Notes under the pieces: generated by a model | What the model was told of the DNA's origin: nothing | Database searches by the model: none | Seen by the model: only the letters and a program-made list of their open reading frames with translations | IMG/VR virus record: IMGVR_UViG_3300028840_001170 | Coordinates: 1-22,487 of that record | Length of the DNA: 22,487 nucleotides | Source of the DNA: a virus | Reading direction: 5' to 3' (one strand) | Program-made: the position numbers and the translations under genes | Part shown: positions 1,445-11,747 of the stretch, one piece after another | How positions within the stretch are numbered: the stretch's first letter is position 1 | Layout of the letters: each line of letters opens with the position of its first letter

Positions 1445-1697
1445 CACCTTGCTCCCTCGCCGCGTCGATGGCGGCGTGTAGGTCTGCGTTGTCTGATTCG
1501 TTAAGCATCGAATCGTATGCTTCCCAAATACGCGGCCAGTGCTTGCGCCACCGCTCGGCGTCTTTGCGCAGCCGCTCGTTTTCCTCCTCAAGCTCCCGGA
1601 TGCGCTTGTCTGATGCATCGCCGTTGACCCACTCGCCTTCTTCGTCCAGCCCCATGCGCCAGATTAGCTCGGGAGTATATCGTTCAAGGTCACTCAT
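1437..1697 (-). CDS. Small coiled-coil hypothetical protein
   Basis: 86 residues from ATG 1697, overlapping the helicase stop as ATGA. Residues about 30-55 form a short charged coil (RIRELEEENERLRKDAERW) followed by Trp-rich KHWPRIWEAYDSML and an acidic/Ala C-terminus (AAIDAAREQG). The coil and the Asp-Ala-Glu-Arg and Ala-Ile-Asp-Ala patterns resemble the protein at 575-892. It sits directly downstream of the helicase in the same leftward operon. Its role is unknown; structural or adaptor functions would fit a coiled coil but nothing shows this. Confidence 0.75.
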   Translation of the reverse strand: MSDLERYTPELIWRMGLDEEGEWVNGDASDKRIRELEEENERLRKDAERWRKHWPRIWEAYDSMLNESDNADLHAAIDAAREQGDE

Positions 1698-3523
1698 CTC
1701 ATTTCCCCCATGTCATAGCCGACGATCTCGGGGTACTTGCCCCTGGTGTCGACCCGGATCCGCTCAGGCTTTACGAGCTCATGCGAGCGCAGCAGGGCAT
1801 TGGTGGTCGACGTTGGTGTCGGCATCAATCCGCCGAGCTTGATCCACAACGACCTGGCGGCGGTCGCCGCGTAGCCACTGTGATCGAATGCCAGCCACTT
1901 GCTGGCGCGCTGCATGCCATTCGAGTACGCGAAGTTCAGGCGCATCGAGTCGGGCTTGCCGGCCTTCCTGTGCCGCGAAGCAGCCATTGAATCGACCTCG
2001 ACCCAGGTGGTGGTGCTGATCGGGTCAGCAATGATCCTGAGCGTGCTCGCCGAGGCATTCGGCTGTGGCCGATCCTGCACTGGCCACTCATAGCCGCAGG
2101 CGGGGCAGGTCATCGTCGACAGATGCACGATCTCGTCGCACTCCGGGCAGGCCTTGGTCGGCGCTGCGCCCTCCTCGTGATTGACGATGTGTGGCTCAAC
2201 CCGGTTGACCGGGCCGTGCCTGGCGACGTTGCCGGCGAAGTCGAGCACCAGGCAGTCCTCTTTCCCCGGGGCGATGCGCATCCCGCGGCCCATCATCTGC
2301 ACGTACAGCACGGTCGACATCGTCGGCCGCAGCAGGGCCATCAGGTCGGTCATCGGGGCATCGAAGCCCGTGGTCAGGACGTTGGCGTTGGTCAGGGCCC
2401 GCAGGCGGCCGGCGCGGAAATCGTCGATTAGCTCGGCACGGGTGGCCTTGGGCGTCTTGCCGGTGATGCAGCCCGCGGTGATCCCCCTGGCGGTCAGCGC
2501 CTGGGCAACCGCTTCAGCGTGCTCGACGCCGGTACAGAACAGCAGCCAGTGCTTGCGGTGCTGCCTGGCGGCGAAGGACTCGACCTCGTCGAGGATGCGC
2601 TCGGTCAGCTGGTCATCGTTGACCCGCTCCTCGAGCTCCGAATGAACGAAGTCGCCGGCGCGAACCGTGATGCCATCGACGTTGATGACCGACTCGGTGC
2701 GCTTCGGGTGCAGCATCGAGAGGTAGCCCAGGTCGAGCAGCTGGTCGATGGTCACCCGGTGCGCAATGTCAGTGAAGATCCGGTTGTGTCCGTGCGTCAG
2801 CGGCCCGTGCCCTGTGCGGTACGGTGTGGCCGTAAAGCCGATGACCTTTAGGGCAGGGTTGGTCTGGGTGAGATCGTCCAGGAAACGGCGGTACATGCCC
2901 TCTGGGTCATGGTTTACCAGATGGCACTCGTCGATGATCACCAGGTCCACGTGGCCGACGTCGTTGGCCTTGCGCCAGATCGACTGGATCCCGGCGTAGA
3001 CGATCGGCTTCGAGTGGTCGTAGCTGCCCAGGCCGGCCGAGTAAATGCTGACAGGTGGGTGGCCGTCCCAGGCCAGCACCAGCTTCTCGTGGTTCTGCTC
3101 GATCAGCTCCTTCACATGCGTCAGCATCAGGATCTTCTGGTCGGGCCACTCGGCCAGCACGCTCTTAATGAACTCGGCGATGATCCAGCTCTTACCGCCG
3201 CCGGTCGGCACCTCGATGATCGGGTTGCCATCGAGCTCTTCGAAGTATTCATAGATCGCGTCATGTGCCGCCTGCTGGTACTCGCGGAGCGAATTCGTAG
3301 CATTCGAGCTTGACCCAGGGGTAGAGGGTGATCCCTCGCCAGACGAGCTTGTGGCGCTCGTGTTCGATCTGCGTTGATCCAACCCTTGCATGACTCGCGG
3401 TTGCGTCGGCCCCACAGGATCCAGCTCCACCTCGTGGGTTATATCGACTGGGCTTGAAATGTCGGCAGGCGCCGCATCGCGCCACCAGTCGATCGTCGAG
3501 TTGTCCAGGTCGTCTTTCATCAT
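1694..3523 (-). CDS. Superfamily 2 DEAD/DEAH-type helicase with C-terminal zinc ribbon
   Basis: 609 residues from ATG 3523 (or adjacent ATG 3520), after AAAGGAG. It is expected to be an ATP-driven DNA helicase or remodeller for phage replication/recombination. Visible motifs: LREYQQ near 79, Walker A PTGGGKS at 106-112, Walker B IIDECH at 196-201, motif III TATPYR near 231, motif V TGFDAP near 385, motif VI QMMGRGMR near 409. A Cys4 ribbon follows (C459, C462, C473, C476), then a tail of about 130 residues of unknown fold. Residues 52-77 are Ser/Thr/Gly-rich and low in complexity; that stretch overlaps another plausible ORF in the -1 frame (3261-3485), so the true N-terminus may be shorter (ATG 3391 is possible but lacks a ribosome site). 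It lies next to a RecB/Cas4-like nuclease, as in phage recombination cassettes. Confidence 0.93.
   Translation of the reverse strand: MMKDDLDNSTIDWWRDAAPADISSPVDITHEVELDPVGPTQPRVMQGLDQRRSNTSATSSSGEGSPSTPGSSSNATNSLREYQQAAHDAIYEYFEELDGNPIIEVPTGGGKSWIIAEFIKSVLAEWPDQKILMLTHVKELIEQNHEKLVLAWDGHPPVSIYSAGLGSYDHSKPIVYAGIQSIWRKANDVGHVDLVIIDECHLVNHDPEGMYRRFLDDLTQTNPALKVIGFTATPYRTGHGPLTHGHNRIFTDIAHRVTIDQLLDLGYLSMLHPKRTESVINVDGITVRAGDFVHSELEERVNDDQLTERILDEVESFAARQHRKHWLLFCTGVEHAEAVAQALTARGITAGCITGKTPKATRAELIDDFRAGRLRALTNANVLTTGFDAPMTDLMALLRPTMSTVLYVQMMGRGMRIAPGKEDCLVLDFAGNVARHGPVNRVEPHIVNHEEGAAPTKACPECDEIVHLSTMTCPACGYEWPVQDRPQPNASASTLRIIADPISTTTWVEVDSMAASRHRKAGKPDSMRLNFAYSNGMQRASKWLAFDHSGYAATAARSLWIKLGGLMPTPTSTTNALLRSHELVKPERIRVDTRGKYPEIVGYDMGEMR
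3261..3485 (-). CDS. Nested out-of-frame zinc-ribbon-like ORF inside the helicase gene
   Basis: 74 codons from GTG 3485 to TGA 3261, in the -1 frame relative to the helicase. The product begins with C-x2-C as CGACRHF, continues NPRGGAGSC, and ends with LYPWVKLEC then YEFAP. The order C-x2-C-x-H-F, Asn-Pro-x-Gly-Gly-x-Gly-x-Cys, Tyr-Pro...Cys-x-x-Phe resembles a small Cys4 protein type common in phages and mobile elements. From codon 41 to 65, 21 of 25 third positions are G or C, against 15 of 25 in the helicase frame, where the product is Ser-rich. No clear ribosome site precedes the GTG; the frame is open further upstream. It could be a real overlapping gene, an overprinted ancestral gene, or the remains of a gene fused to the helicase by an indel. 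Confidence 0.45.
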   Translation of the reverse strand: MARCGACRHFKPSRYNPRGGAGSCGADATASHARVGSTQIEHERHKLVWRGITLYPWVKLECYEFAPRVPAGGT

Positions 3524-3535
3524 TGGGCTCCTTTA

Positions 3536-4633
3536 TTAGTTCTGGTCTCGCGCCGAAGGCTTTCCCAGCGCCTCTACAAACGGGTCTACGATGAACTTCA
3601 CATCAGCTACTTTCATGCCGCCAATCTCGCGACTCTTGATGTGATGCTCCTCGGTCCCTCCGTTTACAAAATTCGCCAGGTCATCTACTCGATATGTGCA
3701 CCAGTCCTGGATATCGCCGTCATCAGCATCGACAACATCGAGCGGCACCAGGGCGGGGATAAATACGTGGAAGTCGCAGCCGGTGAGCTGGGCCTGCATG
3801 TCAGGTATCTCGCAACCCCACCTGGCACAGTTCCAGGTGCCGTTGTCCATCGGGGTCGAGTGGATGCAGGTCCGGCACGTGGCCAGCGGCATGGTCTTGC
3901 CGTAGCACACGGCGTTGTAGTCGCACATCCGGCACTTGTAGAAGGTCTCGTCCTGGGCGATGCGCGGCAGTCCCTCCGGCGTCGGCTCGTTGATGATCGT
4001 CTCGGCCTTCTTGATGAGTGCCTTGGCATCTTCGGCGTGATAGTCGGTCCGCAGGCTGATCGTCTTGCGACCACCTGGCGTTGAGATCGTCATGTAGTGG
4101 CGCTTCAACTTGAAGGCCTTCATGTAGACCTGGGCCTGGCCGTAGTAGGTCGGACTCCAGGCCTTCAGCGCCTTCTTCTCACCGTGCTCCTTGATGGCCT
4201 TCTCGACCTCCTTCAGGCGTCGATCGGCAACCTGCTTGTGCTCCCATACATGCCGGGTCTTTGGGGCCTGCAGCAGGCCCAGGATCTTACCGTCGGCGTG
4301 TCCGCGGAAGTGGCCTCCGACGTCCTCGAGGGCGAACTGCTCGCCGGTATTCGGATCCCGGACCTCGAGCACCAGGCCGGGCACGCGCTGCAGCCTGGCC
4401 GCCATCAGCTCCTCGCCGATGTGGCCATCCTCGAATCGCTTGAGTGTCTCGGCGTCGAAGTTGCGCGCGGCCACCTTGCGGAAGTCGAACCATAGTTTGC
4501 GCCAGCACTCGTCGCCGATACTCGATGCGCCCAGGTACCCTCTGGGCGGCTTGGCGTTCTCGAACTCCTCGAGGGCGGCGTCTGCCGCCTCGAGGGTCGG
4601 GTCGCCTTTCGGTACTTGAAAGGACAGCCCCAT
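3536..4633 (-). CDS. Cas4/RecB-like PD-(D/E)XK exonuclease with Fe-S-type cysteines and extra C-terminal Cys domain
   Basis: 365 residues from ATG 4633, 12 bases upstream of the helicase start. The nuclease core shows GHIGEEL near 70-76, Asp114 in GHADG, Glu131-x-Lys133 in EHKQ, and a Gln166-x3-Tyr170 motif in YYGQAQVY, the RecB-family signature. Cys43 plus Cys234, Cys237 and Cys243 match the spacing of the Cas4/AddB-type Fe-S cluster that pins the nuclease ends together. A second Cys/His cluster (Cys253, 256, 269, 274, 286 and a following His) forms an added C-terminal module before a hydrophobic IPALVPLDV stretch. The expected role is resection of DNA ends for recombination with the Sak4-like ATPase upstream. 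It is not part of a CRISPR locus. Confidence 0.9.
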   Translation of the reverse strand: MGLSFQVPKGDPTLEAADAALEEFENAKPPRGYLGASSIGDECWRKLWFDFRKVAARNFDAETLKRFEDGHIGEELMAARLQRVPGLVLEVRDPNTGEQFALEDVGGHFRGHADGKILGLLQAPKTRHVWEHKQVADRRLKEVEKAIKEHGEKKALKAWSPTYYGQAQVYMKAFKLKRHYMTISTPGGRKTISLRTDYHAEDAKALIKKAETIINEPTPEGLPRIAQDETFYKCRMCDYNAVCYGKTMPLATCRTCIHSTPMDNGTWNCARWGCEIPDMQAQLTGCDFHVFIPALVPLDVVDADDGDIQDWCTYRVDDLANFVNGGTEEHHIKSREIGGMKVADVKFIVDPFVEALGKPSARDQN

Positions 4634-11329: not shown

Positions 11330-11572
11330 ATGGACACGCAAACCACTGAATACCGAACTCAGCCGCTGCTGCATCAAATCGTCTACGAGAAGCTCGGCGG
11401 GGTAACCAAAACGGCCAAACGATGCGGGATCCGCACCTCGGCCGTCTACAACTGGTTCTGGCGCGGGATCTCCCCCGGCGCAGCCCTCCAACTCGAGGAG
11501 CTGTTCAAGGTGCCAGGCCTGGCGCTGGAGCTGATACGTGAGGCGAAGGAGCTACAAAATGAGAACGGGTAG
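11330..11572 (+). CDS. Small HTH regulator (Cro/YdaS-like)
   Basis: 80 residues from ATG 11330; the frame is open from 11237, but that part contains two palindromes and has no ribosome site. AAGG lies eight bases before ATG 11330. Residues about 14-60 form a helix-turn-helix of the Cro/YdaS type: HQIVYEKLGGVTKTAKRCGI, then TSAVYNWFWRGISP, then a helix ALQLEELFKV. Such proteins bind short palindromes as dimers. It is the first gene to the right of the control region, the classic place for a Cro-like repressor of early transcription. A CII-type activator is an alternative. Confidence 0.82.
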   Translation: MDTQTTEYRTQPLLHQIVYEKLGGVTKTAKRCGIRTSAVYNWFWRGISPGAALQLEELFKVPGLALELIREAKELQNENG

Positions 11573-11747
11573 ATGTGAACAATGCGACTGGTACGCGCAG
11601 ACGGGGACCGGTGAGTTCGGTGAATGCCGGGCCACACCGCCGGGAGGCCTGGCTAACTCGGACGTAGTAACGGTCTACTGGAACTTTCCGCTGGTGCACC
11701 GCTACGACTGGTGCTCGGCCTGGTCGGCGATGGAAGATGGCGCGTGA
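11559..11747 (+). CDS. Small Cys-rich (zinc-ribbon-like) protein
   Basis: 62 residues from ATG 11559, after AAGGAG at seven bases; the longer frame from 11538 lies within the HTH gene. The pattern is C-x2-C (CEQCDWY), GEFGECRATPPGG, then a Trp and DWCSAWSAM. Phage proteins with C-x2-C-x-Trp/Tyr, Gly-x-Cys-Arg-x-x-Pro-Pro and a late Asp-Trp-Cys are common, and the four Cys probably bind one zinc. Function unknown; overlaps HTH gene by 14 bases and the next by GTGA. Confidence 0.75.
   Translation: MRTGRCEQCDWYAQTGTGEFGECRATPPGGLANSDVVTVYWNFPLVHRYDWCSAWSAMEDGA

Follow-up and report, generated by a model that had tools for sequence, protein, structure and literature searches.

A small Cys4 gene beneath the N-terminus of a phage helicase, probably an older gene read through in a second frame

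Where two frames over the same bases both read as protein, which of them is the older gene? The question arises in a viral DNA of 22,487 nucleotides (positions 1 to 22,487 of IMG/VR virus record IMGVR_UViG_3300028840_001170; this whole stretch is the window in what follows), in which the N-terminal part of a helicase ORF covers a small ORF with four Cys codons. A preliminary description had offered two solutions, a true overlapping gene pair or a helicase that gained its N-terminus by overprinting an older gene. The second is favoured here by the gene layout of a relative, L151, and by the absence of the N-terminal extension from 244 helicase relatives; the first would also apply if both frames are translated. 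The features concerned, in minus-strand order, are:

3536..4633, minus strand: gene of exonuclease type, lying directly upstream of the helicase ORF and ending TAATAA; its homology to an annotated phage gene makes it Cas4-like
3528..3534, minus strand: AAAGGAG, resembling a Shine-Dalgarno sequence and set 7 bases ahead of the second ATG in the next feature
3518..3523, minus strand: ATGATG, where the extended helicase likely starts (second ATG at 3518-3520); L151 likewise has ATGATG after its exonuclease stop
1694..3523, minus strand: RadD-like / phrog_16 SF2 helicase ORF of 609 aa, counted from the upstream ATG
3290..3523, minus strand: N-terminal extension of the helicase, 78 residues and lineage-specific, which covers most of the nested ORF
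3261..3485, minus strand: nested zinc-ribbon-like ORF, 74 aa, GTG start and TGA stop, with a homologue in L151 and a leave-out profile match at E=7.7e-12
3474-3476, 3465-3467, 3414-3416 and 3300-3302, minus strand: Cys codons of the nested ORF (codons 4, 7, 24 and 62)
3429, minus strand: population variant in L003 that leaves Gly19 of the zinc frame unchanged and replaces Val32 of the helicase frame by Ala
3301..3303, minus strand: possible relic of the original helicase start, a third-frame ATG followed by CTA CGA (compare MLRQYQ in L151)
1694..3289, minus strand: conserved helicase part from LREYQ (residue 79), where the relatives begin

The nested ORF lies in a 113-codon stop-to-stop frame, at -1 relative to the helicase. 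It is open and placed as had been claimed, and the four Cys with the motifs quoted for them (CGACRHF, NPRGGAGSC and LYPWVKLEC) are all in that frame. The helicase frame is of low complexity here, as also described: the second half of the extension is Ser/Thr/Gly-rich, and residues 45-78 are 71% Ser, Thr, Gly, Pro or Asn, compared with at most 56% in 785 windows from the contig's other genes. Two other IMG/VR contigs carry the same stretch with a single substitution, so an assembly error peculiar to this record is not the explanation.

Codon usage divides the overlap. The preliminary description had argued from third positions in the second half of the nested frame that this frame looks the more gene-like, which stands for the latter part of the ORF and does not extend over its whole length. 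In 20-codon windows from 3379 and 3361 the zinc frame is gene-like (GC3 0.85-0.90, codon score +0.18 to +0.23), and the helicase frame, at -0.57 to -0.77, is non-coding-like and within the range of shifted frames. For the ORF as a whole, GC3 is 0.59 in the zinc frame versus 0.64 in the helicase frame (0.84 in this phage's true genes), and in the first third (3523-3433) the helicase frame is ahead in codon score, its first 13 codons scoring as coding.

Homology gives further evidence. Searching for the 74-residue product by HMM, as had been suggested, gave nothing significant in Pfam, NCBIfam or PHROGs, and a strong match only to a profile built for the purpose. This profile represents an uncurated family with the pattern C-x2-C-x2-F ... 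NP-x2-G-x-G-x-C(-G) ... P-x4-5-C, which the window's ORF also has, with the fixed spacing of the first half, as judged by alignment, leave-out profile and spacing pattern. Some members stand alone: a 52-residue protein in L321 (MIVCETCKHF..NPAAGIGQCG..) and one in L004 (starting MVTC), near a helicase 47% identical to that of the window. In L322, L315 and L318 the Cys4 unit is the C-terminal domain of larger proteins (pairwise E = 8e-9 for L315). The window's protein has in common with the family the Cys spacing, the NP..G.G.C core and the C-terminal P....C; it differs in having a longer middle part and a gene covered by the helicase frame. A profile of six other members, built without the window's protein and including L151 and L315, ranked the nested ORF 1st of 477 six-frame ORFs (E=7.7e-12; the second had 0.72). 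Since the search that found L315 had the window's protein in its query, the cleaner tests are two further profiles, the second and third, which leave out L151 and L315. One of these, made from the two viral members L321 and L322 alone, gave E=7.5e-7, with a mild circularity in the first half of the motif because both were found by a spacing pattern derived from the window, L151 and L315.

Other searches were negative: tblastn with the 74 residues in phage and plasmid collections gave no match, the family profile found nothing in 385 genomes of another class, and a motif scan of the exonuclease relatives showed no zinc ORF. Matches to the DNA pattern for CGxCRHFxP in viral contigs were mostly of another Cys motif type lacking the NP..G.G.C core, and the weak profile matches L316 and L319 were judged spurious.

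The relative closest in layout is L151, located through its helicase and not through the zinc frame. Its helicase is the nearest found (58% identity), and its genes run exonuclease, Cys4 ORF, small ORF, helicase, the last starting with ATG (MLRQYQ). The Cys4 frame thus lies between exonuclease and helicase and outside the helicase reading frame. The two Cys4 proteins are 33% identical (E=1e-11 in a single comparison), with the four Cys and surrounding motifs intact in both and no stop in 68 aligned codons. Conservation of the four Cys in a relative with a separate gene, to which the preliminary description had looked for support, is therefore found in L151, at the same place in the gene order. 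The opposite pattern, in which relatives keep the helicase frame only, was not seen: in L151 the zinc frame is kept, and a stop interrupts the frame of the helicase extension. Identity to L151 at the three codon positions of the zinc frame (0.47/0.51/0.31) is as expected if that frame is coding, in an alignment that was made on proteins and so favours this pattern. Relatives in the overlap stretch were either >99% or ~33% identical, and one alone closely shares the window's arrangement.

Other small Cys-rich genes occupy similar positions. In the Acetobacteraceae sequences L278, L280, L284 and L286 (~2100-2540) a different Cys4 gene (CxTCxFW..GLCRRRAP..WPRTF..SDWCGEW) lies directly upstream of the helicase start and slightly overlaps it, and in L167 and L199 a third type, NC[ED][TS]CPHWDL..GLCRC..YHTCSQHPG, lies between exonuclease and helicase. 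Elsewhere in the window, at 11538-11747 on the plus strand, another small Cys-rich ORF (CEQCDWY..GEC..WNFPLVHRYDWCSAW) has a layout like that of small phage zinc-ribbon proteins; it matched one family profile, weakly (E=0.11).

The helicase itself is well defined by phrog_16 (E=9.6e-98) and by Pfam ResIII (9.8e-20) and Helicase_C (2e-14), which make up an SF2 core. With 286 bits it does not reach the NCBIfam RadD equivalog cut-off of 720 bits, and we call it RadD-like, not RadD. Its 78-residue N-terminus is missing from all 244 relatives checked, each with a potential start codon lying 0-7 codons upstream of the LREYQ position. In the window the nearest in-frame start is a TTG 31 codons from LREYQ. 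The in-frame candidates are TTG 3382, ATG 3391, GTG 3415, GTG 3430 and ATG 3520/3523, the best-placed Shine-Dalgarno sequence serving ATG 3520, and translation from any of them would run across the zinc ORF. A helicase made from an ordinary start would therefore have at least ~31 residues that are read through the zinc gene. Spacing within the module points the same way: of the 162 relatives that have both genes, 100 place the exonuclease stop <=12 bases from the helicase core, and in the window it is 246-247 bases away, roughly the length of the zinc gene. The minus strand here reads exonuclease TAATAA, AAAGGAG, ATGATG, helicase ORF.

A trace of the former start may survive at 3284-3303 on the minus strand, where ATG CTA CGA (Met-Leu-Arg, 3303-3295) is followed by 11 bases and then by GAG TAC CAG (Glu-Tyr-Gln). 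From this one sequence, the old start (M-L-R-E-Y-Q) could have been pushed out of frame by an 11-base insertion.

Taking these observations together, we think it likely from comparison of the sequences that an older Cys4 zinc-ribbon gene is genuine, and that the helicase, without its ancestral start, is read from an upstream start through that gene. Three parts of this reading are observed: the zinc ORF has a homologue at the matching position, relatives lack the extension, and no in-frame start lies nearer. Both frames are presumably translated today, the helicase from one of the starts named above.

Population variants, taken from L002 and L003, bear on this little. Variant 3429 is the only one in the overlap, and since about one random change in four would be silent in the zinc frame it is weak evidence alone. 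The others (three in the helicase core, two in the exonuclease) are all silent. As 3429 turns GTG 3430 into GCG in L003, that start is not needed there. Frame by frame, then, the zinc frame is conserved to L151, and no evidence of constraint was found on the extension, with a single variant in the overlap. Just downstream of the helicase, at 1569-1697 on the minus strand, clustered replacing changes and an insertion of one base set L002 apart from the window, in ORF 1437-1697 and near the end of the shared sequence.

The start of the zinc ORF is the point at which other explanations enter. GTG 3485 sits exactly three residues before the first Cys, as do the starts of the standalone proteins of L321 (MIVC) and L004 (MVTC); no Shine-Dalgarno sequence precedes it. 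In the zinc frame of L151 (1949-2344) the stretch from the exonuclease stop to the first Cys contains no ATG, GTG or TTG, and the sole ordinary start further upstream, GTG 1952, is deep within the exonuclease gene. Both points count against the older-gene reading. These gaps, together with the first-third codon scores in favour of the helicase frame, are what a decaying remnant might show, one that has lost its RBS and start and persists because the helicase N-terminus is read through it. We consider such decay unlikely, given the Cys and motifs intact in two lineages, the 68 aligned codons without a stop, the gene-like codon use kept in the last part of the frame and, for what a single variant is worth, the silence of 3429.

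ATGATG could instead serve both proteins. It follows the exonuclease stop in the window and in L151, the zinc frame is at -1 to it in both, and in both the first codons after it score as coding. A regulated arrangement kept in the two genomes, in which one start signal feeds the zinc ribbon and the extended helicase by some unconventional frame change or start, nevertheless strikes us as very improbable. Its specific form, in which the zinc protein is made from ATGATG by a -1 frame shift, is very improbable too: inspection of the sequence between 3523 and 3476 in the window revealed no slippery heptamer, RNA folding around the start is unremarkable (z = -0.40), the standalone proteins of L321 and L004 show that no leader is needed, and the same frame relation would arise in two cases by chance 1 time in 3.

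Chance was assessed in several ways. When codons were resampled with the helicase protein fixed, the zinc frame stayed open in 17% of cases and the Cys4 pattern appeared in 2e-5. That the -1 frame is merely an open frame of a GC-rich helicase gene, such as 74-codon stretches of this phage's genes show in ~9% and ~18% of cases for the two shifted frames, is contradicted already by the rarity of that pattern, the family profile match and the L151 homologue at the same place, and we give it almost no credence.

Returning to the older-gene reading, its steps might have been as follows. The zinc-ribbon gene would first have stood between exonuclease and helicase, as in L151, within a module for phage recombination and replication. 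The helicase would then have lost its own start or been put out of frame, its translation passing to an upstream start, probably ATGATG with its Shine-Dalgarno sequence right after the exonuclease stop. Read across the zinc gene in another frame, the helicase would have gained its 78-residue and probably unstructured N-terminus. An open frame in between calls for no particular explanation, since codon resampling of the zinc protein leaves it open in 38% of trials. The small Cys4 protein probably binds zinc, and its neighbours suggest that it is an accessory of the recombination module, binding nucleic acid or protein; an AlphaFold2 model of it from three sequences was uninformative (pLDDT 38.8).

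The locus is a clear example of how relatives can reveal which overlapping frame came first. The conserved frame is a small gene that standard annotation would probably omit, and the newcomer is the N-terminus of a larger protein, a warning that phage annotation can miss nested genes and accept recent or spurious N-termini. The case also adds members to an uncurated family of small zinc-ribbon proteins, and at least two other Cys4 gene types sit between exonuclease and helicase in related modules.

Among known systems, Pseudomonas phage PSASB_03 (PQ621116) carries a RadD-like / phrog_16 helicase beside a Cas4-type exonuclease and Sak4. It shares with the window the exonuclease-helicase order and the helicase core; unlike the window, it has neither an intervening zinc gene nor an N-terminal extension, the helicase starting right behind the exonuclease. 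The overlap arrangement is a new case of a known kind. Its type of origin is that described as 5' elongation of a downstream gene (2013, PMC3887535; Delaye et al. 2008, PMC2268670, mechanism b), where a downstream gene without its own start is opened inside or before its neighbour, in another frame. It differs from those cases in that the helicase product becomes 78 residues longer and the upstream gene is wholly nested, with ~13 codons of helicase leader before the zinc gene begins.
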